Shown in pieces: positions 9,904 through 24,873 of a DNA stretch of 64,000 nt. Made by a program: the position numbers and the translations under genes. The stretch covers positions 1 through 64,000 of the forward strand of contig CACYPF010000011.1 of assembly GCA_902776195.1 (NCBI GenBank). The letters run 5' to 3'. The first letter of the stretch is position 1, and each line of letters opens with the position of its first letter. The stretch is from an uncultured Prevotellaceae bacterium (GTDB taxonomy: Bacteria > Bacteroidota > Bacteroidia > Bacteroidales > Bacteroidaceae). The notes under the pieces are model-generated. The model was not told the DNA's origin, did no database searches, and was given only the letters and a program-made list of their open reading frames with translations.

Positions 9904-9910
9904 AGCCTGA

Positions 9911-12493
9911 TTACTTTAAAGAGTTCTTAAATTCATTAAGGCCACGAATAGCATACTCATCACCTGTCAGGTCGGAAATGAGGTTGGAGAGTTCGTCTTG
10001 TGCTGTCACAAGTTCTGCATTCAGGTCATTATATGATACTGCATACTTCGACGATAGAGCCTCTACCTGTTTGATCAGTGTTTCAATGACCTCTGAAGCA
10101 GTAGCAATAATACCACTCTGCACAGGAGTAACCCACTTCTCATGCAAGAAGTGCTTCACCTCTTCATCTGTCAGATTCTGAATAGCATGGACTGTATCTG
10201 CTTCCAGCTTTATCTTAGCAGCCTTGATGGCTTTGTTAACCTTTGTCTGCTCATCCCACAGAGCAACCATCTTCTTCAGCTTTGCCTTGGTGTCAGCCTC
10301 TATCTCATCACCCTTGGCCTTGGCGTCTTTCTTAATCTTAGCCTTGTCCATCTTGGTGTTATCGTCAGCATCCAGATACTCCTGGCTTTCATCTTCTGAG
10401 AAGCTGTCGCGAATCTCATCAACCTCACTATTGATGTCTTCAACACGCTGCTGCATATGGGCAATGTTTGCCAAATCGTCAGCAAACATCTCTTGCTGAA
10501 TCATCTCAAAGGGAATGATACGACCTTTCAGCCCATCAGGGACTTCTATCTCTTCATCACCCTTCTTCACCAGCTTGGTTGCCTCTTCAACAGTACGGGC
10601 AGCATCAAAGCCTTCTGACTGGAGCGTCTCAACGTCGTTGACAATCACCTGCCAGTTATCGCTCAATGCCTGATAGGCTGCATAACGGTCTATCAAAGGG
10701 ATGTCTTTCAGACGACGGAAAATGTCGTCTGTAATTTCGTCCTGCTCCTTCATCTCGTTCACGCTCATCACGTTGGTGATAAGCCAACGATGCAGTTCAT
10801 CCTCAAAATCTTCAAAGGCATTTATCATCTGTGCCGTGAAGGCCTTTACGTCTGCATTCTCTTTCACAGAGGCAGCAACATCTTCTACAGCCAAACGAGA
10901 ATAAGGAATATCTCCTTCTGACTTGAACAGCTGCTGATGGAGCGAAGGTAGCACATCCCAATATGGTTGCATGGTAGCGATATCGCTATTGGGGATGCCA
11001 CCATTCATCGTAGCGTAGATGTCATACTGCTCTGGAGTTTCTGAAGAATCAACATAGCGAGGAATATTCAGGTTGTAACCATTCTCACGAATTTCATCAC
11101 GACTTACAGTGCGAGAGAAGCCTGGAACAGTCTTACGATCTCGCCAAGTGTCAGATATACGTTTGATATCAGAAGCACGCAGTTTATTCTGCTTGCCTTC
11201 TTTAACAAACCCTTTCGAAGCATCGATAATCAAAACATCATCATTATCCCTATGTTGCTTCAACACCATAATAATTGTTGGAATATTTGTGCCAAAAAAA
11301 ATATTTTCTGGCAGACCGATGATAGCATCTATTTGGTTTTTTTCTATTAAACGTGCTCTTATTTGTCCCTCGCTACTATCTTCAGGAATACCACGGAACA
11401 GCACACCATGAGGCAAAACAATGGTCATGATACCATCTGACTTCAAATGGTACAGTTCGTGCAAAAGGAATGCATAGTCGGCCTTGCTTTTGGGAGCTAC
11501 ACCATATTCCTTGAAACGCGCATCATATTCTGCATCCTCAGGATTCCAATACTGAGAGTATGGGGGATTTGAAACAACAGCATCCACACGAAGCGCCTTG
11601 CCTGCATCAACGCCAGTCTTGCTGATAGGCCAGTCTTCACCAAGAGAGTCAGCACAGCGAGTATCGATGTTGCTTGGACTGATGCCTCGCATGACGAGAT
11701 TCATTCTAGTCAGGTTGTAAGTATTCTCCTTCAGTTCCTGAGCATAGTATTTCACATGATTCTTATCCTCTATATGACGTCCAACACTCTTACCAATGGT
11801 GAGCAACAACGAACCAGAACCACTGGTAGGGTCGTAAATCTCAATATTGTCCTTGGACTTATGATGTTCAGCAACAATCTCAGACATCAGGATAGCAACC
11901 TCGTGAGGGGTATAGAACTCGCCAGCCTTCTTACCTGCATTGGCAGCAAAGTTGCCAATCAGATATTCATAGACATAACCCAGCACATCATAGTCCTGTT
12001 TGCTGTCAGTAGGAATATCCTTGATATCCTTGATAATGCCTTTCAGGGCTTTGGTCTGAGCAGAAGGATTCTCGCCCAGCTTGCTCAATCCAGCCTGCAG
12101 AGTGATGAAAATCTTCTCATACACTCCTTTGAACTTGTCGCTAATCAACGAATCGAATTTGTTCAGGGCTGCACTCAAGTCCGAGACACTAAAGCTGACA
12201 TCCGGTTTCAACCATGTAGAAAAGAGATACTTATATTCGATAAAGTAACCGATATGGTCTTTGCAGTCTCCAATCAACTTCTCCATATCCGGATTACTAT
12301 AATCCTCCACGAGATAAGGCAGATAGTCATCTGTCCACTCATGTTCAGTTTTCAGGTAGTTCACCTCATTATCTGACAGGAACTTATAGAAGATAAGTCC
12401 CAGGATATAGTCTTTATATTCGTTGGCATCAATCTTTGAACGCATCTTGTTCGCAGAAGCCCAAATCTTGTTTGCTAACTGTTGTTTGTTCAT
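9911..12493 (-). CDS. hsdM: Type I restriction enzyme N6-adenine methylase subunit HsdM (long form)
   Basis: HsdM transfers a methyl group from SAM to adenine N6 in the target. An N-terminal helical HsdM_N domain (about 1-140) is followed by GEFYTPHEVA (191-200), the SAM-binding DPTSGSGSLL (221-230) and the catalytic NPPY (309-312). At 860 aa it is roughly 300 residues longer than classic HsdM. The extra C-terminal part, from about 560, is highly charged and coiled-coil-like (lysine/glutamate rich near 700-770) and may replace or extend the HsdS contact region. It lies 11 nt after a small gene and 7 nt before hsdS. Confidence 0.92.
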   Translation of the reverse strand: MNKQQLANKIWASANKMRSKIDANEYKDYILGLIFYKFLSDNEVNYLKTEHEWTDDYLPYLVEDYSNPDMEKLIGDCKDHIGYFIEYKYLFSTWLKPDVSFSVSDLSAALNKFDSLISDKFKGVYEKIFITLQAGLSKLGENPSAQTKALKGIIKDIKDIPTDSKQDYDVLGYVYEYLIGNFAANAGKKAGEFYTPHEVAILMSEIVAEHHKSKDNIEIYDPTSGSGSLLLTIGKSVGRHIEDKNHVKYYAQELKENTYNLTRMNLVMRGISPSNIDTRCADSLGEDWPISKTGVDAGKALRVDAVVSNPPYSQYWNPEDAEYDARFKEYGVAPKSKADYAFLLHELYHLKSDGIMTIVLPHGVLFRGIPEDSSEGQIRARLIEKNQIDAIIGLPENIFFGTNIPTIIMVLKQHRDNDDVLIIDASKGFVKEGKQNKLRASDIKRISDTWRDRKTVPGFSRTVSRDEIRENGYNLNIPRYVDSSETPEQYDIYATMNGGIPNSDIATMQPYWDVLPSLHQQLFKSEGDIPYSRLAVEDVAASVKENADVKAFTAQMINAFEDFEDELHRWLITNVMSVNEMKEQDEITDDIFRRLKDIPLIDRYAAYQALSDNWQVIVNDVETLQSEGFDAARTVEEATKLVKKGDEEIEVPDGLKGRIIPFEMIQQEMFADDLANIAHMQQRVEDINSEVDEIRDSFSEDESQEYLDADDNTKMDKAKIKKDAKAKGDEIEADTKAKLKKMVALWDEQTKVNKAIKAAKIKLEADTVHAIQNLTDEEVKHFLHEKWVTPVQSGIIATASEVIETLIKQVEALSSKYAVSYNDLNAELVTAQDELSNLISDLTGDEYAIRGLNEFKNSLK

Positions 12494-12504
12494 ATATTGT
12501 ATCT

Positions 12505-12762
12505 TTATTTTATTACAAATAGTTTATTCAAATCCTCATTCAGAACAACATGGTCTCTGAACGAAATACTTTCACCATCATAGACGGCAGAGACATCAAC
12601 ACCTCTGTCAACAAGTGTATCAATCAAAGCAGCATCATGAGCAGCACGAGCAGAAGGCCAGCATCGTTTACCTACCAGAGCGTTAAATTGCTCAACCAAA
12701 GCCTCTGTACTCAGTGACTTCACACCGTTCTTGACTTTCTGATATTTGTATGTTCTTGCCAT
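12505..12762 (-). CDS. Small hypothetical protein leading the hsd operon
   Basis: An 85-aa protein, basic at the N-terminus (residues 1-14) and acidic toward the end, with no motif I can name. The ATG at 12762 is 29 nt downstream of a good -7 box, and its stop is 11 nt before hsdM, so it is the first gene of the restriction operon. The length and position suggest an accessory or regulatory partner of the type I system, but nothing in the residues shows this. Codon use is like its neighbours, and the frame is clean, so it is probably a real gene. Confidence 0.65.
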   Translation of the reverse strand: MARTYKYQKVKNGVKSLSTEALVEQFNALVGKRCWPSARAAHDAALIDTLVDRGVDVSAVYDGESISFRDHVVLNEDLNKLFVIK

Positions 12763-12790
12763 ATCTACATTATTTTATTGTTTTCGTCTG

Positions 12791-12798
12791 CAAAGGTA
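12791..12798 (-). promoter_or_regulatory. -7 box of the hsd operon promoter
   Basis: The minus strand reads TACCTTTG, a match to the Bacteroidota TAnnTTTG -7 element, 29 nt before the ATG of the small leading gene. It falls just past the stop codon of the DUF1016 gene, so the -33 region would lie within that gene. Confidence 0.6.
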
Positions 12799-12802
12799 AT
12801 GT

Positions 12803-13852
12803 CTAAGTATGCAGGTTTTCTGCATCGTTCAAATTATTTTCATCTTCTGATTCGCTTAGTGATTCTTGAATCTCATGAAGTTTTCTCTGTAGTAGGGCTT
12901 TATCTGGTAAACATAGCTGATACTCGGCTACCATTGTTGGGGACAAGCTACGACTCAAAGCATATTCTACGACTGCATCATCCTTGTCTTTGCAGAGCAG
13001 AACACCTATGCTGGGATTCTCTTTGGGTTTCTTTACATCCCTATCTAATGCCTCCAAATAGAAGTTTAACTGCCCCAAGTGCTCTGGTTTGAATTTTTCC
13101 ATCTTCAACTCAAAGGCAACAAGACATTGTAATTCACGATGATAGAATAGCAAATCTATCCGGAAATCGCTGTTTCCTACCTGTAGGCGATATTCCTCAT
13201 CAATGAAAAGGAAGTCTTTCCCAAACTCCAAAACAAAGTCTTTCATTCGGGCAATCAGGGCTTTCTTCATCGTATTTTCATGTTCATAGTCCTTCCCGCC
13301 AATGAACTCTAATACATATTGATCTCTGAAGATTTGTTCTGCCTGAGGTGCTATTTCTCTCACCAGTGGTGAGATTTTTGGGGTTCCAATCTTTGAACGT
13401 TCATATAGAGATGTATCAATTTGTCTATTCAGTTCTCGCTTTGAAAGATGTTCTTTCTGGCAAAGTGTTAGATAAAAAAATCGCTCATCAGAAGACTTTG
13501 TTCGACTCATTATAATGAGATTGTTGGTCCAACTAATTTGTCTCACCAGTGGTGAGAGTTTTTCGTCAGCATCCTTATATGTCTCATAAAACTGCTTCAT
13601 GCGCCAAAGGTTTTTATCAGAAAATCCCTTGACTTCAGGACTATTCTTCTCAATATAGTCTGCTAATTGCTTAACCACACCATCACCCCATTCTGAAATT
13701 GAAATCTTGTCGGATATATACTTACCAACTCTCCAATATAAATCTATCAGAGAAGCATTAGCCAATCGAACCACTTCGCTGCGAGTATGCTGAATCATGG
13801 TTACGATTTCAGCAAATTGGTCCTTTCTATCTTGTACTATTATGTTATTCAT
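12803..13852 (-). CDS. DUF1016/YhcG-type PDDEXK nuclease-domain protein
   Basis: A 349-aa protein with the DUF1016 N-terminal helical domain (about 10-140, including LANASLIDLYWRVGKYIS) and a C-terminal PD-(D/E)xK fold: DFRIDLLFYH supplies the aspartate and LVAFELK the ExK pair, followed by GQLNFYLEALD. The usual length is 330-370 aa, so it looks complete. YhcG-like proteins are frequent inside or beside type I restriction loci; their activity is poorly defined. The start codon overlaps the WYL regulator's stop by 8 nt, which implies coupling to that gene. Confidence 0.88.
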   Translation of the reverse strand: MNNIIVQDRKDQFAEIVTMIQHTRSEVVRLANASLIDLYWRVGKYISDKISISEWGDGVVKQLADYIEKNSPEVKGFSDKNLWRMKQFYETYKDADEKLSPLVRQISWTNNLIIMSRTKSSDERFFYLTLCQKEHLSKRELNRQIDTSLYERSKIGTPKISPLVREIAPQAEQIFRDQYVLEFIGGKDYEHENTMKKALIARMKDFVLEFGKDFLFIDEEYRLQVGNSDFRIDLLFYHRELQCLVAFELKMEKFKPEHLGQLNFYLEALDRDVKKPKENPSIGVLLCKDKDDAVVEYALSRSLSPTMVAEYQLCLPDKALLQRKLHEIQESLSESEDENNLNDAENLHT

Positions 13853-14846
13853 CTTTTTTACAATACTGTTGATTCATTGCTTGAATTTTCTTCGCTATTC
13901 GGTCTCTGAAGGTTGATGGAGCAATAACTTCCATATCATCACCAAAAGAGAGTATCAGGGATTCCAATTCATTGTTTATCTTCACATTTATGGAGATAAT
14001 AGCATATCCTTTGCCCTCTTCAATAATTCGTTGTGACAAATGAAGGGGCTTAGTGCGAATATAGTTGAATCGTTTGCCTGTTACCTTAATAATTATGTCT
14101 TCTGCATCTTCATCTGGAACGGTAACGCCTATCACATCATCGAAATACTCAGAGAAATCAACCTCTGCTTCTTTATAAGGCAGGGCAACCTCTTCAAAGC
14201 TGTCAATTCTGTCAAGAGCATAGTGAGCATATGACTTATAGCCTATTGCCTGAGCGATGAGATACCAGCGATCATTGAATTGTTTCAGATGATAGGGATA
14301 GACGTTAACCGTCTGCGTATCTTTTCCATAAGGTGTATATCTGAGTTTCAACACTCTTTTGGTGAGAATAGCCTGCAATAGTTCTGAGAAATACGAAATG
14401 CCTTTCAAATCTGGGTTCGACTGGAATGATACGACTGGCGTGTTGTCTTCACTAAACAAGCCTCCCTCTATTTGCATAAGAAAAGCTCGTGCCCAATCAT
14501 AAAGAGGCTCTCCTTCAAAATCTCTCAAAACATAGATGGCATCCTGAATCTTGTGCCGTTCTTTATCATTCATGCGGACAAGATGGATGGAGAAATCGGT
14601 ATTAATATACCTATAAATACGCTGGCGGCCTTTACGGAGTTTTTCGTTTAACCTGATGCCATAATCTGTTTCCATGTTAACTATATCGTTCTGAATAGTA
14701 CGCTTTGAGACCTCAGGTTTATCAAGTCTGCGTAAAGCCTCGTTACACTCATCGACAAGGTCATCGATAGTGTAATCTCTGTAGGGATTCCTAAAGCACT
14801 CGTTCAAAACCCGATAGCGTTCTATCACTTGTTTGTCAACAGGCAT
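13845..14846 (-). CDS. WYL-domain transcriptional regulator
   Basis: The 333-aa protein has an N-terminal winged HTH (about 1-75, with VSKRTIQNDIVNMETDYG as recognition region) and a WYL domain (about 130-235), seen in RWYLIAQAIGYKSYAHYALDRI. A WCX-like C-terminal part follows. WYL proteins sense a ligand, often nucleic acid, and regulate defence loci. It starts 4 nt after the XRE gene and overlaps the DUF1016 gene, so the three form one operon facing the hsd operon. A role as regulator of the restriction genes is inferred from position. Confidence 0.85.
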   Translation of the reverse strand: MPVDKQVIERYRVLNECFRNPYRDYTIDDLVDECNEALRRLDKPEVSKRTIQNDIVNMETDYGIRLNEKLRKGRQRIYRYINTDFSIHLVRMNDKERHKIQDAIYVLRDFEGEPLYDWARAFLMQIEGGLFSEDNTPVVSFQSNPDLKGISYFSELLQAILTKRVLKLRYTPYGKDTQTVNVYPYHLKQFNDRWYLIAQAIGYKSYAHYALDRIDSFEEVALPYKEAEVDFSEYFDDVIGVTVPDEDAEDIIIKVTGKRFNYIRTKPLHLSQRIIEEGKGYAIISINVKINNELESLILSFGDDMEVIAPSTFRDRIAKKIQAMNQQYCKKDE

Positions 14847-14850
14847 ATCC

Positions 14851-15081
14851 TCAATTCTTTATCTTTGACAATAGGAACTGCTCGTATTCTCGAACTAACA
14901 GCTCTTTTATATCAACCTCCAGCAAGTCGGCTATCTTAAGCAGACTTGCAACATCGGGCTGAGAAGAGTTAGTACACCACTTGCTTACTGTAGATGGGTT
15001 AACACCCATCTGCATTGAGAGCCATCGCGCAGTACGCTTTTTCTCTACCAATACGACTTTCAGTCGGTTTATATCTTCCAT
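14851..15081 (-). CDS. XRE-family helix-turn-helix regulator
   Basis: A 76-aa single-domain Cro/CI-type DNA-binding protein. The HTH is seen in TARWLSMQMGVNPSTVSKWC (about 17-36). I start at the ATG at 15081 because a -7 box lies only 19-26 nt upstream. The longer frame to 15141 begins with TTG and would read through the promoter. First gene of the XRE-WYL-DUF1016 operon, so it may autoregulate it. Confidence 0.85.
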   Translation of the reverse strand: MEDINRLKVVLVEKKRTARWLSMQMGVNPSTVSKWCTNSSQPDVASLLKIADLLEVDIKELLVREYEQFLLSKIKN

Positions 15082-15099
15082 ACTTATAGCTTTATTCCA

Positions 15100-15107
15100 C
15101 AAAGGTA
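15100..15107 (-). promoter_or_regulatory. -7 box of the XRE-WYL-DUF1016 operon
   Basis: The minus strand reads TACCTTTG 18 nt before the ATG at 15081. It supports the short start of the XRE gene, since a start at 15141 would lie upstream of the promoter. Confidence 0.6.
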
Positions 15108-15141
15108 GTGATTTATTTTCAATTGTTTTCTGTTTTACCAA

Positions 15142-15298
15142 AACAATCTGCCAATTTTTGTCGTATTTGGCTATTTTTAACGACTTTACCTCTATATTTA
15201 TAGCCTTTTAGTTAGTCCCCGAAATGTTAAAATTTCAACTTTTTCTAATATTTCCTTGAAAAGTTATTTTTTTTAAGGTTTCAAAGAGAAAAGCTTGC
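15142..15298. other. AT-rich intergenic stretch
   Basis: No gene is supported here. It should contain the -33 region of the XRE promoter. Near its right end, 15279-15300 (GGTTTCAAAGAGAAAAGCTTGC) closely resembles 358-380 at the island's left edge, so a short dispersed sequence may be present. Confidence 0.4.
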
Positions 15299-15820
15299 TA
15301 ATATCTGCTATAGGGGTACTCCGATATCTCCCGTAGGTCATGCGGGATATTGCCATGGGGGGATAGGAGATATTCCCAAGGGGCTTGGGAGATATCGTCA
15401 TGCCCCACGGAGCCCGTACCTCCGCCCCTCAGAGCTTAGGGCTTCGACCTTTGAAGCCTAGGGCTTCGCAACCCACATGCAGTATTTTGGTAAACACAGA
15501 GATAATTTCGCAAAAACATATAACCATATAACATGACAGACCGCAACCCCCGATAAACAGAGGCTTTAAAGCATGTTATATGTTTGCTGAACATATAACA
15601 TACATATAACATGCTTCTCACACAAAAGTTATATGTATGTTACATGTATGTTACATGTTTGAGCAACATGTAACATGGCTCAATCCCTTTGTATATAGGC
15701 ATTTGAGCCACATTATGTTATATGGTTATATGTTTTTGCGAAATTCATAAGAATCAGTTACCGACTGAAGGGCAGTTCGTTACCGACTGAAGCCCCCTTT
15801 TCATACCGACTGAAGCCCTT
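15299..15820. repeat. Palindrome-rich intergenic element, copy A
   Basis: About 520 bp without a gene, with a partner at 56,542-57,069. It has three modules. First, a GC-rich stretch (15,299-15,500) of short inverted repeats that begins CTCCGATATCTCCC and ends near CAACCCACATGC. Second, a 242-bp unit bounded by perfect 31-nt terminal inverted repeats (15504-15534 and 15715-15745). Inside it are two 12-bp hairpins with 5-nt loops: 15573-15601 and 15590 arm, then 15648-15676. Third, three direct repeats of TACCGACTGAAG with a 22-23 bp period (15758-15815). No transposase or target duplication was seen. Confidence 0.8.
15504..15745. repeat. Inverted-repeat core of copy A
   Basis: Perfect 31-nt terminal inverted repeats enclose about 180 bp. 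The two internal hairpins have arms ATGTTATATGTT/AACATATAACAT and ATGTTACATGTT/AACATGTAACAT. They differ by paired changes that keep every base pair. A further 14-nt inverted repeat (AAGCATGTTATATG with CATATAACATGCTT) brackets the first hairpin. The core is nearly identical to 56829-57069, while the flanking module has diverged. Confidence 0.85.
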
Positions 15821-15834
15821 AATTGGGTCATTCC

Positions 15835-15909
15835 GATACTCTTATTCAACAATACGAGTATCTTATTAAACAATACGACTGGCAGATTTTTCATTCCGCC
15901 AGTCGTATT
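15835..15909. repeat. Two adjacent inverted repeats
   Basis: GATACTC (15835-15841) pairs with GAGTATC (15856-15862). AATACGACTGGC (15872-15883) pairs with GCCAGTCGTATT (15898-15909). Both contain AATACGA-type words, so they may be related sites. They could be a structured RNA or protein-binding sites; neither has a clear U tract on either strand. Confidence 0.6.
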
Positions 15910-16167
15910 ACCAAATAACATTATCGTGTTTGACGATAAGTGAACTACATAATATTAGCCTATTTTGCCTCATCAGTTATCAAATATCGTATCTTCAAGT
16001 GCTTTATCCGTCACGTTTGGATAACCAAATGGCAGAAGTTTATTTCAAAACCAACAAAGACATCCACCCTAATTTCTCTAATTTTCTTGAGAATCAGAGA
16101 TCTATGCGCCCCTTCTATTCTTTTTTATTTCTTCATACACGACAATATCTGAAAGTTTGCACCCTCA
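15910..16167. other. Intergenic stretch without a supported gene
   Basis: An 87-codon plus-strand frame crosses this region but needs a TTG start, has no ribosome-binding or promoter signal, and runs antisense into the next gene. I see no domain in it. It may be a decayed gene or plain spacer. Confidence 0.4.
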
Positions 16168-16755
16168 TTAATCTATTGGTCTCTTCAATTTGATTATGAT
16201 AGGAGTAGTTTCTTCACAATCAGTTTTGTCCTTTTCTGTTCGAATGATATCACCAATTGCAAAATAGTAATATAGTGGTGGCTCAAAATGAGCATCTTTC
16301 CCATTAGCGACCTTCATAAACAATTTGTTCAAGTCCTTGCATCCGAAACGGTCATTCAAGTCTTGAATGTTTTTGCGAGTGACAGGAATGAGAGCATTCT
16401 CATAGCAAGTCACGTCGATAAACCAAGAATTCTGCTCATCGTGGAAATGAATCCTTTCTACGGGACGTGTGGCGCACATAAATTCCGTAAAGGCTTCCAT
16501 GTCCATACCAAAACAGTCTCGATGGGCTGTCATCCATTCGTCAACATAATGATCCGTCAAACAATCAAAATACTGATCGTTGAATAGGCGGACCACGACT
16601 TTTCTTTTACATTGAAGAATCTCGTCTGCTTCCTCTCGGCTCAGCAAAAGGTCTAACTGCTTGATGGGTTCACATTGTGGAGCATTATACCTTGCTATGA
16701 ATTCATCCATAGCAAGGAAATACTCTCCATCTGACATCCTTTTGAACTTGCTCAT
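16168..16755 (-). CDS. ASCH-like paralogue, single domain, degenerate motif
   Basis: A 195-aa protein clearly homologous over its full length to the N-terminal parts of the genes at 16774-17628 and 22805-23818. Shared features are MSKF..M(S/T)D.EYF, LDLL.(R/S)REEA, the HFHD stretch and YYYFAIGDI. The ASCH-type GxKxxExR signature is broken here: the corresponding residues read QCKRKVVVR, losing the glycine and glutamate. It has no C-terminal DUF4357/RAMA-like domain. The ATG at 16755 matches the paralogues' starts; the frame extends upstream only through a TTG. It follows the longer paralogue by 18 nt and is probably cotranscribed. ASCH domains are thought to bind RNA or modified bases; function here is unknown. 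Confidence 0.65.
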   Translation of the reverse strand: MSKFKRMSDGEYFLAMDEFIARYNAPQCEPIKQLDLLLSREEADEILQCKRKVVVRLFNDQYFDCLTDHYVDEWMTAHRDCFGMDMEAFTEFMCATRPVERIHFHDEQNSWFIDVTCYENALIPVTRKNIQDLNDRFGCKDLNKLFMKVANGKDAHFEPPLYYYFAIGDIIRTEKDKTDCEETTPIIIKLKRPID

Positions 16756-16773
16756 AGCCAAAGTCTATGCTAT

Positions 16774-17628
16774 TTACTTTTTGTATTTTTCTTCATATAG
16801 GACCTTCAGCAAATGAAGCTGGTACAGCCAATATGGACTGGGCTGCAATGGTTTTCGGGTGTGCAGAAGTCTTTGAGTAAGAGGAGTAAGTTTATATATC
16901 TTATCCATGTATTTTACTTCGCGGTCGCTGACCACCTCAACCTGTACTTCTGGATTGTTCTTGAATATCAGCTTTGCCCCAGGCAGAATGCCCAAGTCTT
17001 TAAAATTCAGAGGTGGGCGTCTGCCGTTCTTTTCCTCTTTCTCTCCTGCTTTGTCTTGTGGCTTTTCTATTGTCTTAGGTACTTTGACAACCTTTTTGGG
17101 CTTTGTTTTCAAATCCGTATCCAATATATCTCCAATGGCAAAACAATAGAACAACGGGCGCTCTTCTGCATCTTCTTTTTCAAGTTCTTCCAATAGTTCA
17201 TCGAACTCATGGCAGTCATAACGCTTCTGCAAGTCTTCAACATTGCTCCGCGTTATGCCAATTAAAGCGTTCTCTATACATGTCACATCCAAGAACCATG
17301 ACTTGTTATAATCATGGAAATGGATTCTATGAACGGGTCGTATAGCGCACATGAATTCATTAAACGCCTCCATATCCATGCCTTCGGTATCTCGGTGTTC
17401 CGTCATCCATGCATCAACATTCTTGTCTGTAAGTCTGTTGAAGTAATAATCTGAGCATTGACGAATTTCCACTTTCTTTTCTCCGCTAAGTATCTCTTCA
17501 GCAAACTCCCTGCGCATAATCAAGTCTAGCACCTCTATTGGCTTGCACTTGGGGGCTTTGTACTTCTCCATAAACTCATCCTCCGCAGCAAAATATTCCA
17601 CGTCGGTCATAGAATCAAATTTACTCAT
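16774..17628 (-). CDS. ASCH-like domain protein with C-terminal DUF4357/RAMA-like domain
   Basis: A 284-aa protein. Residues about 33-170 form the ASCH-like region, with [23 protein letters not shown] containing GxKxxExR, then [13 protein letters not shown] and [11 protein letters not shown] lysine- and glutamate-rich linker (about 172-205) leads to a DUF4357/RAMA-like domain (about 207-284) with [28 protein letters not shown] and SPYWLYQ. RAMA domains are predicted to recognise modified DNA. The combination suggests a reader protein with two base-sensing modules, which is inference. It heads an operon with the short paralogue and has its own promoter with a shared palindromic element. Confidence 0.7.
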
Positions 17629-17675
17629 CGCTTCAATGTTTTATACTTATACTTCTATTTTAATAAATCGTGCTG

Positions 17676-17717
17676 CAAAATTAAAACGAGGTTGTTTCAA
17701 AACATGGAACAACCTCG
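17676..17717 (-). promoter_or_regulatory. Promoter with shared palindromic element, overlapping a Fic terminator
   Basis: The minus strand reads TTTGAAACAAC, seven bases, then the -7 box TAATTTTG (17676-17683). The same arrangement occurs at 21274-21309 and 23845-23882. Here the element is the 3' arm of a 10-bp inverted repeat (CGAGGTTGTT, 17687-17696, with AACAACCTCG, 17708-17717) followed by TTTTAATTTT. One sequence may therefore both terminate the Fic transcript and act as operator for the ASCH-RAMA gene. Confidence 0.6.
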
Positions 17718-17730
17718 GGAGAAATGATCA

Positions 17731-18186
17731 TTATTCAGAAAATCCAATATCCTTACTCATTGCCTCTATCAATTCCAGTTTGATGGATTCGCTATAATCT
17801 TCGTCATTGACAATGCACCGCATCACTTCCGTCAGCAAATCACGGTCAATATGCCCAGCAGCCACATGATAGCCGATAGCCTCCATTTCCTCCATGAAGT
17901 TTTTTACCAGGTACATATAGCCATTCCTCAAGAAGAAAGACAATGTCAACGTAATAGAGATGCGTTTATTGCAATCAGCAAAATAGTGTCCTCTGCACAA
18001 ACTATACATCAGATAAGCAGCCTTGTCAGCAATCTCGGGATAATACAAGTCGTCCTGCACAAAGTCGAGAGTTGACCTGATGCCACCTTCATCGCGCACA
18101 CCAGCCATTCCGCCTCCGCTCTTTTCTACCGTTTTGTTGTAAATGGCGAGGGCTTCGTCATAATCGATATATGTGATGTTTGCCAT
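17731..18186 (-). CDS. Doc-type Fic domain protein (toxin)
   Basis: The 151-aa protein has the Fic motif HYFADCNKR at residues 67-75, in the Doc form (HxFx[D/N]xNKR) that lacks the second glycine-arginine of AMP-transferring Fic enzymes. Doc proteins phosphorylate EF-Tu and stop translation. Conserved GGIRSTLDF and the LxxxLxxxHxFxDxNKR helix are present, so it looks catalytically intact. It starts 12 nt after a DNA-binding-like gene, as toxin-antitoxin pairs do. No Phd-like antitoxin is visible; the upstream protein is the only candidate. Confidence 0.85.
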   Translation of the reverse strand: MANITYIDYDEALAIYNKTVEKSGGGMAGVRDEGGIRSTLDFVQDDLYYPEIADKAAYLMYSLCRGHYFADCNKRISITLTLSFFLRNGYMYLVKNFMEEMEAIGYHVAAGHIDRDLLTEVMRCIVNDEDYSESIKLELIEAMSKDIGFSE

Positions 18187-18198
18187 ACCTTTTCCTCC

Positions 18199-19200
18199 CT
18201 ATTGCTTTAGACGATCGAGTACAGCCTTGTTCTCATCCAGCAGATGGTCGAAATCGACAGACTGGCTACCAATGAATTTCTCATACTCCTCTGGCGACAC
18301 GGCTTTTAGGTATTCGGCTATGTTGTCGTGATATACATCACGGAGAGCAAAATCGCGTGAAGCCATCTTGGTTCTGGCATCCTCTAAGATCGGCTTTACA
18401 AAAGGCATTGCTGCCAAATCTTTAACGAACTGTCCGACTTCTTCAACAGTCACAGTCCCCACTTCTTTAGCCTTTGCTCTAATGGTTTCTGCAACTTGGT
18501 TCTCAAATGCAGACACAGCCACCAACACCTCTGCATAGAGTGTCCTGCGCAAGTTGTCTTTTTCGCTCAGTTCAAGCAGTTTCTTGTATTCCTTGGCCTT
18601 CTCACAGAAGACAGCCTTGTATATCATATCTATGATGGTGGGATACTTATATATCTTGTGCCCATCAACATAATCCCTGATGGCATCAGTTAATTTCCTA
18701 TGATAATTCTCTTCTTGGATGGCAGATGTAACATAATTCCTATCCCTGCGGTTGATATACTTCGTTCCGCCTCCTGATTTTTCATTGATTACGGAGATAA
18801 CAATGTCCAGCATTAAACTACGAACCAGCTTTGCCTTCTCACTTGTGGTGAGCAACATGCCGATGTTGAGAAACGAGCGAAAGTCGAAGATTCCAAGGCG
18901 AACAGTTTTGATACCGAAATCGATTTCGGTATCAAAGTGTAACTTAAACTCCTTCAGTTCTTTACCAGTCAAAACCTTATATCCGTTTCTATGTAACTCA
19001 TTTTCGTTTGCAGATAAGCAATTTTCTATGGTGCGGATATCCACCTCATAGAAATCTGCAGCCATCTGCTTTGTTACATATAATACGCCATTAAACTCCA
19101 GAGGCTTAATCTCCAAGGCTTCACGGATGCGAGGCAGAGCCACCGGATTGTTCAGTATATTCTGCCTACTAATTTCTGATGTCGTTAAATCCTTTGCCAT
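18199..19200 (-). CDS. DNA-binding-like partner of the Doc-type Fic protein
   Basis: A 333-aa protein. Residues about 33-85 (FNGVLYVTKQMAADFYEVDIRTIENCL, shown in part) resemble the RhuM/KilA-N-like recognition region found in phage antirepressor-type proteins. The middle, around 125-215, is basic with KSGGGTKYINRRDRNYV and a helical region. The C-terminus is helical and acidic. Its stop is 12 nt before the Fic gene, so it probably acts as antitoxin or regulator; that is inferred from position. Its start is 47 nt after the GIY-YIG gene with no clear promoter between, so one long transcript from 20.8 kb is possible. Confidence 0.6.
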   Translation of the reverse strand: MAKDLTTSEISRQNILNNPVALPRIREALEIKPLEFNGVLYVTKQMAADFYEVDIRTIENCLSANENELHRNGYKVLTGKELKEFKLHFDTEIDFGIKTVRLGIFDFRSFLNIGMLLTTSEKAKLVRSLMLDIVISVINEKSGGGTKYINRRDRNYVTSAIQEENYHRKLTDAIRDYVDGHKIYKYPTIIDMIYKAVFCEKAKEYKKLLELSEKDNLRRTLYAEVLVAVSAFENQVAETIRAKAKEVGTVTVEEVGQFVKDLAAMPFVKPILEDARTKMASRDFALRDVYHDNIAEYLKAVSPEEYEKFIGSQSVDFDHLLDENKAVLDRLKQ

Positions 19201-19247
19201 AAAGCAATTTTTACATTTACAATAACTCTTAAAGAGATTATCTTCTT

Positions 19248-19928
19248 TTACTTTTTATGAGGTTTTACCAATTTTTGCCACATACTGTATAATGTTTCTT
19301 TGTCACCCTTATATGTAAAGGACTGATAGCCATTGTGCTCATTTGTCTGGCCATTCCTTGGATGTTCTTTCTTCATGTAATTCGACAACGACATTTCTTC
19401 ACCAGCAACTAAAATGCCATTACCTTTCACTGTAAAAGTCTTCCCATCTACAATACATTTTATCTGGTCACCATCAAGAATTCCTAAGAAGTCCAAACGG
19501 CAATTAGGAATCTTCAATTCTTTTATTTCATTGTCCTCATATTTATACCTTTTGCCTTGATAGCACATTTCAGAACCGGGGAATTCACTAAGCATTTGCT
19601 TATATATTTCAACTATTTCCGCTTCTTCTGCCCTAATCCATTCCTTGCTGCTACTTTCTTCTGTCTCTAAAATGAGGCTCTTTTCTTTAAAGATACCCTC
19701 AAGTCGTTTTTCTATCTCTTTATAGGATTTTGAAAACATCACGATAATGTCATAAAGAGCATAAACCGGAGGAACAGAGTTGTTCTGCACTCTTTTTCTT
19801 TGAAAAGGATTAATTGTGATACCATACTTATAAATATGCTCACGTTCATACAGCTCATTTGTGAGCAAATACACTATTCCCACATGATCTCTTGTTGTTC
19901 TATTCTTCCTATTCATAACAAACAGCAT
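19248..19928 (-). CDS. GIY-YIG family protein with C-terminal DUF4357/RAMA-like domain
   Basis: The 226-aa protein opens with a GIY-YIG/T5orf172-like fold (about 15-115): GIVYLLTN and YKYGIT are the two halves of the signature, and an arginine-rich NPFQRKR follows. A conserved glutamate candidate lies in EKRLEGIF. The C-terminal part (about 145-226) reads like the DUF4357/RAMA family: FLGILDGDQIKCIVDG, GNGILVAGEEMSLSNYM and GYQSFTYKG. Its ATG overlaps the upstream stop as TGATG, so translation of the pair is coupled. A DNA-cleaving protein that reads modified bases is plausible but untested. Confidence 0.75.
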   Translation of the reverse strand: MLFVMNRKNRTTRDHVGIVYLLTNELYEREHIYKYGITINPFQRKRVQNNSVPPVYALYDIIVMFSKSYKEIEKRLEGIFKEKSLILETEESSSKEWIRAEEAEIVEIYKQMLSEFPGSEMCYQGKRYKYEDNEIKELKIPNCRLDFLGILDGDQIKCIVDGKTFTVKGNGILVAGEEMSLSNYMKKEHPRNGQTNEHNGYQSFTYKGDKETLYSMWQKLVKPHKK

Positions 19929-20776
19929 CAATTTTTACGTAACGAAGTAAGTTTTTGCCCATTGTAATACCAATATTCATTGCCATTGACTGTCTTCAAA
20001 TCCATTCCAGCAAATTCGTTGAGATATTTTTTTGCCAAAGGAGACGTGCGGGCTATTTCACCACGACAATCAAACTTGTTGTCCCCAACGTAAATGGCTG
20101 TCACAGGTACACCATTCTTATCGACAACTTCTTCTCCTTTACCGTTCTTTAGTACAACTTCTGCATTTTCCACTTCAGCAAAAACTAAATCCAAATCCAA
20201 GTTTTTCTTCCTTGTCCCTGTTTCCATCTCTTTCTCAGATTCCTCTGCATCACTATCTAGATTGATATTGTTGAATCGGCAAAGCTTAATGATTTGCTGA
20301 ACACGTTCCTCATCCTCTTCATCAGCAATAAGATCATGGTCAATGGATTGTATAGCGTACTTAATTTTCTTTCTCTGAACATTGTAGACGAATTCTTCTC
20401 CAGCAGGTATACTAAACTTATCTTCCCTGCGTTCACGATTCATTTGTTTGCTATTGTCTATTTCATATAAATCTTGGCATAGACGATTTCTTATTTTCAA
20501 ATCTGTTTTAATCCTGTATGGAAAGATAAACAGATCAAAGATTCTTGAGGGGAATGGAATACCTGTTCTGGATTCGCCCTTAATCCGAGACATTGCTTTC
20601 TGTCTGACTATGTCGGGATTAGAAAGAAGTGTTTCTAGTTCTCCCTCCCATTGTGTCTCACCAATTTTTATCCATTCATTTGCATCCAATGATATGATCT
20701 TGTCACTATAATATTTATCTTCGCACTGCTCAGGTCCAAAGACATACACAATTGTGAATTTTGTAATCTTACTCAT
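19928..20776 (-). CDS. GIY-YIG-like protein with C-terminal DUF4357/RAMA-like domain
   Basis: A 282-aa protein. The N-terminal half resembles a GIY-YIG fold in IVYVFGP and WIKIGET (about 8-42), with TGIPFPSRIFDLFIFPY and EEFVYNVQ further on. The signature is looser than in the next gene, so catalysis is uncertain. The C-terminus (about 200-282) is DUF4357/RAMA-like, with PLAKKYLNEF, VNGNEYWYYNGQKL and an acidic linker before it. The first gene of a coupled pair: its TGA overlaps the ATG of the second GIY-YIG gene. A TAnnTTTG -7 box lies 29 nt upstream. Confidence 0.7.
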   Translation of the reverse strand: MSKITKFTIVYVFGPEQCEDKYYSDKIISLDANEWIKIGETQWEGELETLLSNPDIVRQKAMSRIKGESRTGIPFPSRIFDLFIFPYRIKTDLKIRNRLCQDLYEIDNSKQMNRERREDKFSIPAGEEFVYNVQRKKIKYAIQSIDHDLIADEEDEERVQQIIKLCRFNNINLDSDAEESEKEMETGTRKKNLDLDLVFAEVENAEVVLKNGKGEEVVDKNGVPVTAIYVGDNKFDCRGEIARTSPLAKKYLNEFAGMDLKTVNGNEYWYYNGQKLTSLRKN

Positions 20777-20804
20777 ATTAGTACTGTATTAAATATTTCT
20801 TCTG

Positions 20805-20812
20805 CAAAAATA
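20805..20812 (-). promoter_or_regulatory. -7 box of the GIY-YIG pair
   Basis: The minus strand reads TATTTTTG 28 nt before the ATG at 20776, fitting TAnnTTTG. It lacks the palindromic element found at the ASCH-type promoters. Confidence 0.5.
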
Positions 20813-20970
20813 CAAAAAAATATTTGAGTTATCAGTAAATCTAACCGAAAAAATTCAATTCTTTATCGCTTATATTTAGACAATAAATACTATATTCGTA
20901 CATTAGCATCACAGAATTCTATGAGACCTTGTTTTTGTCTCCATTTCAAGGGTGTATTCACTTCGATATT

Positions 20971-21036
20971 TCAAAAGAGAAAACCGCCGAATGATTTGCT
21001 AACCCGAAGTCACTGTGCAACTCTTTCATCCGGCGG
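20971..21036 (-). terminator. Terminator-like hairpin of the orphan unit
   Basis: CCGCCGGATGA (minus strand, 21036-21026) pairs with TCATTCGGCGG (20994-20984) with one G-U pair and a 31-nt loop, followed by TTTTCTCTTTT. Confidence 0.5.
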
Positions 21037-21273
21037 CTGAGAAGACGACTTGATATTTTCTGCACCTCGCTGCACCAATCGCAGCAGCCTCAGAATACGC
21101 CCCCTTGATGATGCCAAGAAGGCTAAGCTTGAAGTTATCGCGCCATCCCGCGCCATCTTGACATCTTGAAGGCAGTGCCAACATATTGGTTGCCTTCGCC
21201 TTGCCAAGCACTACCGCCGTTTCGGATATGTCGAAACTGCTACCCTGCAAGCGCACATCTTTTGATGACACTG
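20971..21273 (-). ncRNA. Orphan transcription unit, possible non-coding RNA
   Basis: This unit of about 300 nt has a promoter copying those of the ASCH-type genes (21274-21309) and a terminator-like hairpin at the other end. A 94-codon frame crosses it but begins inside the promoter palindrome, and a second frame also overlaps, so a protein is doubtful. A short protein starting at an internal ATG (for example in the GKAKATNM region) or a decayed gene remains possible. GC content is higher than in its neighbours, which may mean a different origin. Confidence 0.35.
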
Positions 21274-21309
21274 CAAAATTAGTCGCAAGTTGTTTCAAAT
21301 CGTGAAACA
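21274..21309 (-). promoter_or_regulatory. Promoter with shared palindromic element (orphan unit)
   Basis: The minus strand carries TGTTTCA-N5-TGAAACAAC followed after seven bases by the -7 box TAATTTTG (21274-21281). The layout equals that at 17676 and 23845, while the seven spacer bases differ, which argues for a functional site. Confidence 0.55.
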
Positions 21310-21321
21310 TGCTGCAGACAA

Positions 21322-21651
21322 TTACAACTCATCGTATTTTTTTGCATTACCGTAGGCTTTATTTACAGGGTATTTCTCTGCATTTTTCTGTAGCTTGTCT
21401 AAAACGATTTGTTTGACGTCGAGGTTGAATTTGTCTGCTATCAGAATGGCATAGTTGAATACATCAGCCAACTCCTCCTTCACTTTTTCGACATTAACTT
21501 CTGAGGCATCCTTCCAAAGAAAGGCTTCATTAAGTTCTGCAGCCTCAATAGAAAGAGCCAGTGCGAGATCTTTTTCATTATGGAATTGATCCCAGTCACG
21601 CTCTTGCGTGAATTGTACTATAACTTTCCGAAGTTCTTCAAGGTCACTCAT
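21322..21651 (-). CDS. MazG-like nucleotide pyrophosphohydrolase
   Basis: A 109-aa protein of the all-alpha NTP pyrophosphatase family (RS21-C6/dCTPase-like), hydrolysing (d)NTPs to monophosphates. The metal-binding pattern is visible as IEAAELNEAF (ExxE, about 34-43) and EELADVFNYAI (ExxxD, about 60-70). The length is typical for the single-domain type. In a defence-type island it could alter nucleotide pools during phage growth, though housekeeping of modified nucleotides is equally possible. It has its own promoter about 86 nt upstream. Confidence 0.88.
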   Translation of the reverse strand: MSDLEELRKVIVQFTQERDWDQFHNEKDLALALSIEAAELNEAFLWKDASEVNVEKVKEELADVFNYAILIADKFNLDVKQIVLDKLQKNAEKYPVNKAYGNAKKYDEL

Positions 21652-21737
21652 TGCTTATTGTATTTTGAGTTATACATTTCAGGTGCAGTTTTATTAGCCA
21701 AAAACATAATTCTAACATCTTTTTCTAATCATCGATG

Positions 21738-21745
21738 CAAAGGTA
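21738..21745 (-). promoter_or_regulatory. -7 box upstream of the MazG-like gene
   Basis: The minus strand reads TACCTTTG, leaving an untranslated leader of roughly 80 nt before the ATG at 21651. No conserved leader structure was recognised. Confidence 0.5.
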
Positions 21746-21946
21746 AGTTTTTAAATTCATACAAAGACTGGCAAGCGGGGGATATCGATGCCCCTCATAT
21801 CAGCAGAATTACCTGCCGTTGCTCCGTTCCAAACATCATGCGCTCTACTCACCAGTCTATTCAAAAAGGGTGGCACAAGCGACAGATTTGAACTACTACC
21901 CATACCTTTCGGCTACCACATTTACCATGCATCAGCGAAATTGTTT

Positions 21947-22753
21947 TCATAAGTTATCAATATCGCTGAAGTCATCATAGATAACTTCTACGAAATCTTC
22001 GTTTGACAAGTTAAGTTGATTCTGAAAATACGAGGAGAACATAACATGCTTTGCATTCTTTCTCCATTCTTCTTTTTCCCACTTTTCCACCCATGTGGTA
22101 TCATCATTTAAGTATTGGAAAGAACGGGCATATTCCTTAAGATCATCTGCCAAATAATTCATCTTATCGAAAATTTCAATTGTCGGCCCCTGGTCAGAGC
22201 AGATAATCACCTCTTTGCAACCAAACATCTTTGCTTGCTGATATATCCTCATCCGATAATCGCGCAGCCACTCTCGCCATTTTCCTGATGAATGAAATGC
22301 GTATTCCCACGTTGTCCACCTTTCAATTACGCATACATCGAGATTTACATTCTCTTTGAAAATCCTAATATAAGTGTTATCATTTCTATCCTCTATTTCG
22401 TATAACTCGAATGAGTCTTCAATATCTTCAAGTATTGAGTCTGCAGCACTTGCAAAGGTTACCTGGCGCAATTTTTCTTCACCTACAGATTCCAGTATCT
22501 GACGTGCCTGATAATCAGAGGCTATCATCTGTAGGTAGTCCTTGGAACTATTCACTTCATACTTCCCAAGTTCGATTAATTCATAACCTTCGGCTTCTCT
22601 TACAACATTCTTTGTATTATCATACTCATATTCATTTCTGTATACAAGTCTGACATTCCTATTCATTCTTTTTGCAACTTCTTGTGCTGTCGCAAAAGGA
22701 TCGTGGACTGGCAAGTTATGCCTTAACCCAATTTCTACTACATCCCATCCCAT
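21947..22753 (-). CDS. Unrecognised protein
   Basis: A 268-aa soluble, acidic protein that I do not recognise. It opens MGWDVVEIGLRHNLP and has an aromatic-rich centre with ERWTTWEYAFHSSGKWREWLRDYRM (in part) and a tryptophan-rich stretch near 225. There is no signal peptide or membrane segment. Its ATG is 51 nt after the ASCH-type gene's stop, and a -7 box overlaps that stop. The gene lies between the ASCH paralogue and the MazG-like gene on the same strand. The aromatic pattern suggests a protein-interaction or immunity-type role, but no function can be assigned. Confidence 0.6.
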   Translation of the reverse strand: MGWDVVEIGLRHNLPVHDPFATAQEVAKRMNRNVRLVYRNEYEYDNTKNVVREAEGYELIELGKYEVNSSKDYLQMIASDYQARQILESVGEEKLRQVTFASAADSILEDIEDSFELYEIEDRNDNTYIRIFKENVNLDVCVIERWTTWEYAFHSSGKWREWLRDYRMRIYQQAKMFGCKEVIICSDQGPTIEIFDKMNYLADDLKEYARSFQYLNDDTTWVEKWEKEEWRKNAKHVMFSSYFQNQLNLSNEDFVEVIYDDFSDIDNL

Positions 22754-22799
22754 TGTTTTGGTCCATTATATTAATTCATAAAGTGCTCTTATATAGTCT

Positions 22800-22807
22800 C
22801 AAAATTA
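22800..22807 (-). promoter_or_regulatory. -7 box overlapping the ASCH-gene stop codon
   Basis: The minus strand reads TAATTTTG, whose first three bases are the TAA of the upstream gene. It could drive the unrecognised gene separately, with a leader of about 40 nt. It lacks the palindromic element. Confidence 0.4.
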
Positions 22808-23818
22808 CAGATTGTTTTTATTATTATGTCTCTCGATAAACTTATCACAATCTCCAGCAGGATCCATGAATTGCACAAGTCGTTTAACACACTCGCTGCC
22901 CTTGAATGTGTTATCTTCATCAAATTCACACGAAATGGAATATCCGTTGCTGAATTCATATCCTCTGCATGAGATTCCCATATATTTAAATCGACATTTT
23001 AGTTTTGGAACAAGAATAATTACAGGTTCATCATCTTCAAACAAGTCGAAATCTGTTCTGTTGTCCACAATCTCCGTTTCATCATCGACATCCGGAAAAA
23101 CGTGAATATCGAACAAATTGATGAATTTGTCATCACATGCCCAAAGCATGTCATGGAAGTTGGAGAGAACTTCATCTTCCAAATTGGTAGTATTACCTTT
23201 CTCTTCAAAAATGCGCTCTGCTTCTCTATATGCCTCAGTCGTTGTATATGTCTTGTCTTCATTAACGGTTTTAAATCCATCCGGCAAACTCATAGGCCTC
23301 AAATCGGTATCTAAGACATCACCTATCACAAAGTAATAGAACAGTGGACGTTCGTCAGTATGCTGATTCTCACACTCGTCAAGGATTTCGTCAAACTCAT
23401 GGCAGTCAAAACGCTGTTGCAAGTTCTCCACATTTTGTCTGGTGACTGCTATCAGCGCATTCTCCGTACATTCCACATCGAGATACCACGATTTGTTGTA
23501 ATCATGGAAGTGAATCTTCAATACAGGTCTTGTAGCACACATGAACTCATTGAAAGCCTCCATATCCATACCTGGCTCGTCACGATGTTCTGTCATCCAC
23601 TTATCCACCTTTTTGTCAGTAAGGCGATTGATATAGTGATCAGAACCATTGCGAACCTCGACTTTCTTTTCACCACTAAGAATGGCTTCTGCAAACTCTC
23701 TGCGCATAATTAAGTCCAAGACCTCAATAGGTTCGCACGCAGGAGCCTTGTATTTCTCCATAAACTCATTCTGTGCAGTAAAGTACTGCTCATCTGTCAT
23801 CTCACTGTACTTACTCAT
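22805..23818 (-). CDS. ASCH-like domain protein with a unique C-terminal region
   Basis: A 337-aa protein. Residues about 1-165 match the two paralogues at 16-17.6 kb, with [22 protein letters not shown] (intact GxKxxExR), [13 protein letters not shown] and [14 protein letters not shown]. The C-terminal 170 residues differ: an acidic stretch followed by [15 protein letters not shown] and a short beta-rich end, with no DUF4357/RAMA-like signature. I start at the ATG at 23818 by alignment with the paralogues; the upstream extension would translate the promoter. It follows the WYL regulator gene but has its own palindromic promoter. Confidence 0.7.
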
Positions 23819-23844
23819 CATCAACATTTTTAGTTTTACGACTG

Positions 23845-23882
23845 CAAAGATAGACCATAGTTGTTTCAAATCGTGAAACAAC
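23845..23882 (-). promoter_or_regulatory. Promoter with perfect palindromic element
   Basis: A perfect 9-bp inverted repeat GTTGTTTCA-N5-TGAAACAAC (23860-23882) lies seven bases upstream of the -7 box TATCTTTG (23845-23852), covering the expected -33 region. That position suits a repressor or activator site. The adjacent WYL regulator is a candidate binder. Confidence 0.6.
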
Positions 23883-23899
23883 AACAAAGAAAATACGTT

Positions 23900-24853
23900 T
23901 TACTCGTAAAATCCTTTAGCATCTATCCCATAAAGTCGGGCCGATTCTGCGTGCATCTCAAAGATTTCTAACGCAAGCCATTCTGGGGAAAGCACCTTGA
24001 TATGGCAGCCATGACTGAGCAGACAATTACAGAAATCCATTGTAGGACGTAAAGTCAACTCAAAGTCCGTGTAATCATCCCCTCGTGCGATTTCTCTTTG
24101 GCTATGATGCAAAGGGAGATCTTCCAAATAGAACCGCTCTTGTCCGAATGCCCTGATAACAACTCGTTCTACCATCGTATCGTCATGCACCACGACACCA
24201 AAGCATTCTTCAAAATAGGCTTCTGCGTCAAAGTCGGGGTCTATGGTGAATTTAATATCCGTCAGAGAAAGGCTACGGATTCTGTCAAAGGCAAAAACGC
24301 CAAAGAAATCATCAGTAACATTGTCTGATGGGGCTGTCTTCTGATAATGCCCTAATACATACCAACGCCTATTGAATAGTTTGATACAATATGGCTCGAA
24401 ATCCAAATCTTTGGATTTGTCTGCTCCATAACGTTGATAGGCAACCTTTATCCTGACACTTCGCCTCATCGCTTCGATGACTGTTGACAAGTACTCATGC
24501 CCAGAAGAGACAGGTTCCAAGAGTATTCTGTCTTTCAAAGCCAGGCTTTCGCTAACGGTGCTGCTCACGGAAAGCGTAGAAAGCATCCAATTTTGCATAC
24601 TATTCTCTTGTAACACATGTCTATTCCCAATGGAATATTTGTAACCATTATTCCTGTCGCAATCAATATACAAGCCAAAGATTTCCTCAATGGCAATACG
24701 ATGGCGATGGAAGGTTGTTCGTGACAATGGGATTCCCTCGCTCATTTCTGTCTGTAGCCACTTCTCGTTAATCCCTGCGAGCGTAATGCTTCTGGCTTGA
24801 TAGATGGTGTTCACCAGCCAGATGTATTCTTTGAACTTTGTATATGTATTCAT
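23900..24853 (-). CDS. WYL-domain transcriptional regulator
   Basis: The 317-aa protein has an N-terminal winged HTH (about 20-80; LSRTTFHRHRIAIEEIFG is the recognition region) and a WYL domain (about 140-215; RWYVLGHYQ and FAFDRIRSL). A C-terminal WCX-like extension follows. It is distinct from the WYL protein at 13.8 kb. I take the ATG at 24853 because the longer frame starts with TTG within the promoter. As first gene of the second island half it probably controls the neighbouring ASCH-type promoters. Confidence 0.85.
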   Translation of the reverse strand: MNTYTKFKEYIWLVNTIYQARSITLAGINEKWLQTEMSEGIPLSRTTFHRHRIAIEEIFGLYIDCDRNNGYKYSIGNRHVLQENSMQNWMLSTLSVSSTVSESLALKDRILLEPVSSGHEYLSTVIEAMRRSVRIKVAYQRYGADKSKDLDFEPYCIKLFNRRWYVLGHYQKTAPSDNVTDDFFGVFAFDRIRSLSLTDIKFTIDPDFDAEAYFEECFGVVVHDDTMVERVVIRAFGQERFYLEDLPLHHSQREIARGDDYTDFELTLRPTMDFCNCLLSHGCHIKVLSPEWLALEIFEMHAESARLYGIDAKGFYE

Positions 24854-24873
24854 AGGCAGTAGCAATTTTGCCA

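Follow-up and report, generated by a model that had tools for sequence, protein, structure and literature searches.

A shared palindromic promoter element suggests a WYL-controlled, mix-and-match defence regulon around ASCH, GIY-YIG and RAMA genes in a Prevotellaceae genome

How bacteria time the joint action of many unlinked defence systems is an open question, and it is raised by a run of genes in an uncultured Prevotellaceae bacterium (GenBank assembly GCA_902776195.1, contig CACYPF010000011.1, positions 1 to 64,000; this whole stretch of 64,000 nucleotides (nt) is the window below). The source genome (G000; about 2.97 Mb, 42 contigs, 93.55% complete) carries ten genes of the same orientation at 16168-24886 on the minus strand, to which all coordinates of cluster features refer. 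A WYL regulator (23900) stands at the head, followed by ASCH-x (22805), o21947, MazG (21322), GIY-YIG (19928), GIY-YIG (19248), ORF6N (18199), Doc (17731), ASCH-RAMA (16774) and ASCH-short (16168). The original prediction was that the ASCH and GIY-YIG proteins could detect and cleave foreign DNA carrying modified bases, with the Doc-type Fic pair and the MazG-like enzyme as partners. We find that what joins the genes is a common promoter-operator together with the WYL regulator, neither of which figured in that prediction. The operator sits 9 nt from a -7 box, is reused before dissimilar defence genes in related genomes, and has the WYL gene as a neighbour. Our best reading of these sequences, at about even odds (roughly 0.5), is a WYL-controlled, mix-and-match defence regulon: the window would hold a cluster of likely defence genes, which the WYL protein would co-activate from the shared operator during phage attack or DNA damage.

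The operator is a palindrome, TGTYYCA-N5-TGRRACA, followed after 9 nt by a Bacteroidota -7 box, and it stands before three gene groups of the window. It emerged from repeats within the window, as TGTTTCA-N5-TGAAACA at 21291 and 23862 and, with one mismatch, at 17693. The bare palindrome with up to three mismatches is not enriched in the window (6 found, 5.2 expected); the two exact copies and the single-mismatch copy stand out there. We take the Bacteroidota promoter consensus to be TTTG, about 19 nt and TANNTTTG, and the long pattern TGTYYCA-N5-TGRRACA-N9-TANNTTTG, in which 20 positions are fixed, reaches the full 20 at each of the three window sites. One (23845-23880, TGTTTCA-N5-TGAAACA-N9-TATCTTTG) lies upstream of the ASCH gene 22805. 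Another (21274-21309) lies upstream of the GIY-YIG pair behind a leader of about 500 nt, the GIY-YIG gene being the next same-strand open reading frame (ORF) of at least 90 amino acids (aa), 498 nt away. The last (17676-17711) is 48 nt 5' of the ASCH-RAMA gene 16774, and in six relatives (L004, L006-L010; L and G numbers are our handles for loci and genomes) the distance from operator to ASCH start codon is 40-49 nt. Several ASCH promoters (L004, L007, L009, L010 and window 17676-17711) have arms, about AGAGGTTGTC ... GACAACCTCT, that are longer than those of the remaining operators. Long leaders between the operator and 19928-type GIY-YIG genes occur in the window (20777-21273, about 500 nt) and in L043 (9422-9750, about 330 nt), and contain stretches that are alike by eye; an RNA gene in the leader 21274-20776 was rejected, an Rfam scan of 12000-26000 having given merely two weak microRNA matches near 15580-15669.

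The long pattern scores 19-20 in nine of twelve genome loci (L004-L011 and L041-L044, excepting L005, L041 and L042), and three shuffles of 308 kb produced no score above 16/20. When the strict pattern was applied to 201 genomes of the family, 30 sites were found in 15 genomes, compared with 0 for a reversed control pattern; in the whole viral-contig collection it matched four times, twice within ORFs and twice between unclassified genes. Spacing was assessed on the 20 palindromes from sources obtained independently of the pattern, leaving out L097-L114, which had been retrieved with the 9-nt spacing already set in the search pattern. The best -7 box lay at exactly 9 nt in 16 of these and was tied there in two more, against a background of 271/5000, and 43 of all 47 palindromes were best at 9 nt. 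Among 48 sites scoring 19-20 (three being reverse readings of another site), one falls within an ORF of at least 150 aa (random 77%), and 25 have a same-strand ORF at most 150 nt away (random 6%).

In the relatives, the operator precedes ASCH genes, GIY-YIG-RAMA genes, ORF6N/Doc and other defence cargo. It stands before Cas12a in L099, along with Cas1 and two short neighbours that we take to be Cas4- and Cas2-like. Behind it in L102 are an AddA-like UvrD/PDDEXK protein, with a relative in L114, and as second gene an AAA-ATPase/PDDEXK_9 protein; the name AddB for a short or unscanned neighbour is likewise our assumption. In L109 a PDC-M03B-like protein is followed by a GmrSD protein (574 residues, scanned) and a second that resembles it by eye; L098 has an AIPR/AbiU protein 513 nt from the operator; L106 has a PDC-S57 nuclease; and L110 has an HD protein and, further downstream and by eye, an ADP-ribosylglycohydrolase to which PADLOC gave no family. 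In L044, ORF6N-Doc, away from ASCH, and an ADP-ribosylglycohydrolase each have a separate operator. ADP-ribosylglycohydrolases recur in operator loci (L041 1303-2112 and L044 7105-8346, both by Pfam; L110 4654-5424, by eye), as do HD_4 proteins (L007, L042, L110).

The candidate regulator, encoded by the first gene of the cluster (23900-24886), is a WYL/WCX protein with a helix-turn-helix-like N-terminal part (Pfam WYL 2.8e-10, WCX 2.2e-6). Close homologues (48-58% identity) are present in eight of 12 genomes that were identified solely by the operator. Operator loci totalling 266 kb hold 8 WYL homologues and the 31 control loci, totalling 95 kb, hold 0, the controls being short, at about 3 kb per locus, and drawn in part from other families. 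The recognition helix follows the pattern TF-x-RH-z-y-AI. Eleven loci have D at residue y, and in 11/11 of them the operators read TGRGACA; in the four loci without D they read TGAAACA in three (the window, L099 and L112) and TGAGACA in L102. This covariation has a Fisher p of 0.009, uncorrected for kinship and for a position picked afterwards, on a count that omits L041, whose sites are weak (17 and 16). The window protein is nearest to D-bearing proteins (66% to L007), so its change looks separate from those of L099 and L112; the WYL tree, poorly resolved with 3 of 13 inner branches starred, does not settle the matter. Taken together, helix-base covariation and neighbourhood suggest that the 23900-24886 protein binds the operator.

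The palindrome overlies the -33 region at an unvarying distance, and a TTTG box could not fit in 18-21 nt before the -7 box; for this reason we favour activation over repression, with modest confidence. The WYL protein would be an activator resembling DriD, its palindrome sitting where the -33 box belongs, and by analogy to DriD and PafBC the trigger may be single-stranded DNA or a nucleotide. The best solved match of the WYL profile (E 1e-4) is one that we take to be DriD, as we do 7u02, 9cu3, 9pfq and 8tp8. The accessible part of PMC12340889 names 7TZV as DriD and describes a DriD site that overlaps -35 at a fixed distance from -10, with several promoters activated when single-stranded DNA occupies the WYL domain. 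The operator here has the same placement, and as with DriD and PafBC one WYL protein would serve several promoters; those are DNA-damage regulons, whereas defence genes abound in the cargo here.

The rival that survives best, which we consider unlikely, makes the WYL protein a repressor like BrxR, of BREX, or CapW, of CBASS, so that the cassettes stay silent until an infection-made ligand binds the WYL domain. There too a WYL protein encoded in a defence island acts at a palindromic site: as far as the accessible parts of the two papers go, BrxR binds inverted repeats with a 5-base-pair spacer, as found here, and has two such boxes in its island (PMC9122601), and CapW, a repressor of CBASS, recognises palindromic sites (PMC9122588). 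The promoter position differs, however. CapW sites overlap -10 (PMC9122588) and the BrxR probe has its -10 upstream of the repeats (PMC9122601), whereas the palindrome here lies upstream of the -7 box, at one constant distance, and the motif itself excludes a TTTG box, which an activator fits better. In addition, one element here recurs ahead of many cassettes that are unrelated to one another, in several genomes of a single Bacteroidota family, while the BrxR family is, by a section heading of PMC9122601, predominantly proteobacterial. Among the matches listed in our literature search, with subscription papers mostly beyond reach, there was no multi-cassette WYL operator in Bacteroidota, no ASCH-RAMA fusion, and neither PDC-S57 nor PDC-M59.

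The neighbours of ASCH were compared in nine relatives (L004-L011 and L041; labels such as Prevotella, Prevotellaceae and Bacteroidaceae). Two of them, L005, which is 3.1 kb long, and L006, whose ASCH gene lies at the end of its contig, may conceal neighbours. A GIY-YIG-type gene lies immediately upstream of the ASCH gene in six (L004, L005, L007, L008, L009 and L010). Four sequence types occupy this place: the 19928 type in L004, L005 and L007, the 19248 type in L009, the S57 type in L010 and, in L008, a fourth type with no detectable RAMA end. This recurrence in four types fits a working link between the two genes. A full-length WYL homologue is found in 7/9 ASCH loci, o21947 in three (L009, L010, L011), Doc/ORF6N beside ASCH in one (L011), and a MazG match in none of the nine. 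Co-occurrence, which the original prediction had made its test, holds for GIY-YIG before ASCH and fails for the ten-gene set as one machine; with Doc/ORF6N at 1/9 and MazG at 0/9, ASCH, GIY-YIG, Doc and MazG as a single fixed machine is rejected, and the two proposed partners are not fixed ones.

The three proteins said to end in one common domain do so. For 16774-17628, an ASCH-RAMA protein, and for 19928-20776, a T5orf172-like GIY-YIG nuclease, the C-terminal domain has a predicted RAMA fold, with CcrM as best solved match and MPND-DNA next. The C-terminus of 19248-19931, a GIY-YIG nuclease that overlaps 19928 through TGATG (T5orf172 1.4e-8; PDC-S57 2.3e-13; C-terminus 94% to the S57 type), is tied to the same RAMA-like domain by profiles, via a third relative. 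The proposed identity with RAMA is upheld by the predicted fold. In sequence searches, Pfam RAMA (PF18755) matched no window protein at E<=1, short of its cut-off, and 4/73 relatives, the best at 0.0024. Profile-profile comparison with Pfam RAMA gave no significant match, in a weak test whose collected set included wrong frames (L061, L062, L066); L059 and L060 alone gave a best value of 25% (E 8e-4). A Protein Data Bank search by sequence alone with alignments A3 and A4 returned nothing useful. The 16774 RAMA domain is identical at 38/84 positions to that of the GIY-YIG nuclease in L010, compared with 16/49 for L106, 14/53 for 19928 and 5/9 for 19248; being far closer to the L010 nuclease than to those of the window, it looks as if the domain had been passed between neighbours. 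Judging from this closest match among those compared, and from the four GIY-YIG types before the same ASCH gene, the cassettes appear to be interchangeable.

The GIY-YIG domains of 19248 and 19928 are confirmed by the GIY-YIG/T5orf172 family profile, and in an alignment of 57 rows K37, G39 and E128 are invariant, with Y11 and R64 almost so. PADLOC profile PDC-S57, a GIY-YIG protein with a RAMA-like C-terminus, spans the nuclease and C-terminal domain of 19248 and the C-terminal part of 16774 and 19928; in 16774, ASCH replaces the GIY-YIG half. GIY-YIG-RAMA proteins join a putative reader domain to a nuclease, as type IV restriction enzymes do. The accessible part of PMC11037411 mentions GIY-YIG-RAMA fusions of the same two-domain layout as possible type IV restriction reader-nucleases, there with neither an ASCH partner nor a regulon, and did not confirm a methyl-adenine DNA preference for the MPND RAMA domain. 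GIY-YIG-RAMA and ASCH-RAMA proteins may target modified DNA: RAMA would dock the nuclease onto altered-base DNA, which it would cut like a type IV enzyme, and the ASCH partner would read or hydrolyse the altered base or nucleotide. The C-terminus of the L008 GIY-YIG protein (6621-7886) has a GxxxxExR stretch that is ASCH-like by eye and gained no support from profiles.

The ASCH domain expected in 16774 was recovered as a predicted ASCH/PUA fold at its N-terminus, although Pfam scores of the window proteins (14.0 and 14.5 bits) stay below the cut-off of 21.2. We take GxKxxExR to be the ASCH motif; it is present in the family, with G49, K51 and E54 almost invariant and R56 invariant in 16 aligned rows, and the ASCH core is strongly conserved. 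The query matches G000 at three places, all inside this cluster, where 22805-23818 encodes an ASCH-like protein with a different C-terminal part (74% identity to 16774 over residues 1-178; Pfam ASCH 0.06; the listed ORF begins at 23887, the homologue-matching ATG is at 23818) and 16168-16761 a short paralogue (53% identity; family alignment) in which the G, K and E of the motif are replaced (CKRKVVVR). Among the ASCH homologues listed (best 120 of at least 208), 18 span the whole ASCH-RAMA query; most others stand alone at about 174 residues and some have other C-terminal parts. ASCH matches occur in 10/251 whole genomes of the same family, strongly in five (G000, G218, G176, G157, G065), and in 2/393 of an order-level sample, one being G000. 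Paralogues with differing C-terminal parts include window 22805-23887 and P0051, whose end looks ankyrin-like by eye.

It is doubtful, though compatible with the regulon, that ASCH and RAMA act instead on RNA or nucleotides in stress metabolism, for example as an ac4C-type amidohydrolase or a ribonuclease. Solved structures that match ASCH include YqfB, an ac4C amidohydrolase, and ZmASCH, the latter reported as a ribonuclease in the accessible part of PMC5615036, and HD and ADP-ribosylglycohydrolase genes lie within operator loci; on the other side, the genes that share this operator include several nucleases and known or candidate defence genes.

Besides the limits on the control and covariation counts and the missing Pfam RAMA match, a number of observations weigh against a WYL-controlled regulon. 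L102, with A and I in the helix and TGAGACA in the operator, breaks the covariation. The DriD match is confined to the WYL-WCX end and leaves the DNA-binding part uncovered. Three ASCH genomes of the 201-genome sample lack a strict site (G065, G157 and G176, the best sites in their loci L041, L005 and L010 reaching 17, 18 and 19), the ASCH genes of L011 and L041 have no site of 19-20 directly in front, and both L005 sites break the 9-nt rule, on a contig with coverage 1.05. No same-strand ORF of 90 aa lies inside 400 nt of 16/48 sites, and the cargo at L103, L104, L107, L108 and L111 is unclassified or not obviously defensive. Finally, a close WYL homologue is absent from the fetched stretch of G066, G117, G159 and G171 (G066 and G159 being short contigs), and among ASCH loci L005 has only a fragment and L004 none in reach. 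These four of 12 operator genomes, with L004, are what speaks for a different, unlinked regulator binding the element, the WYL gene being merely an island passenger; the enrichment of WYL homologues near the operator and the helix-base covariation make this improbable. Another reading takes the repeat for a site at which a cassette collector recombines, its promoter look being incidental. This would suit the operator copies on many cassettes and the cargo shuffled among loci, but we give it very little credence in view of the 9-nt spacing to the -7 box and the short distance to start codons.

If a WYL-controlled regulon exists, it is possible, and we put this forward more tentatively, that the WYL protein and the 36-base-pair promoter-operator work as a plug-in socket, through which whatever gene comes to lie behind it joins one infection-triggered defence regulon. 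Prevotella-like Bacteroidota would then combine CRISPR-Cas12a, AddAB-like nucleases, GmrSD, ADP-ribosylglycohydrolases and RAMA readers with GIY-YIG or ASCH under a single alarm that parallels the SOS response but is specific to phage. The short operator with its exact geometry provides a searchable handle that predicts a regulon per genome, and it points to o21947, the AIPR gene, the ASCH family and the small C8 family of L097/L109 as new candidates for a role in defence. ASCH-RAMA and GIY-YIG-RAMA proteins offer a natural pair for probing whether bacterial RAMA domains read modified bases, a matter unsettled even for MPND.

The remaining cluster genes are of several kinds. ORF6N-like 18199-19200 and the Doc-type Fic toxin 17731-18186 (DOC_P1 4.5e-12) match both candidate defence profiles, PDC-M59A (PADLOC 9.4e-140) and PDC-M59B (8.1e-54), strongly, and would be an independent pair that shares the island outside the RAMA set. 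The MazG-like pyrophosphohydrolase is encoded at 21322-21651 (PF12643 1.7e-16). The conserved protein o21947 (21947-22753), which adjoins ASCH/WYL in L009, L010 and L011, has no Pfam or PADLOC family and a single chance-level NCBIfam row; its relatives in these loci and L042 share 59-73% identity, and in L042 the relative adjoins an HD protein less than 5 kb from a Cas12a gene, with neither ASCH nor WYL. Carriage of the system by phages or plasmids was rejected: the viral contigs hold no relative of o21947 or 19928, and the ASCH part of 22805 found no plasmid match. ASCH relatives of 30-42% do occur in 13 phage records, and a stand-alone ASCH, 66% identical to that of 22805, occurs in three viral contigs of 119-124 kb (L025, L026, L027), which have zero operators scoring at least 16 and also carry a row of many small proteins with a common N-terminus like ARESxVNPxNA. 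Elsewhere in the window, 477-15141 holds a P-loop ATPase of the YobI type (1236-4745), a type I restriction set (4755-12493), a nuclease of the YhcG/DUF1016 kind (12803), a further, distant WYL protein (13845) and a helix-turn-helix protein (14851). A 118-nt inverted repeat at 15504-15745, imperfect (75%), lies between this restriction set and the ASCH genes and may be a small mobile element.

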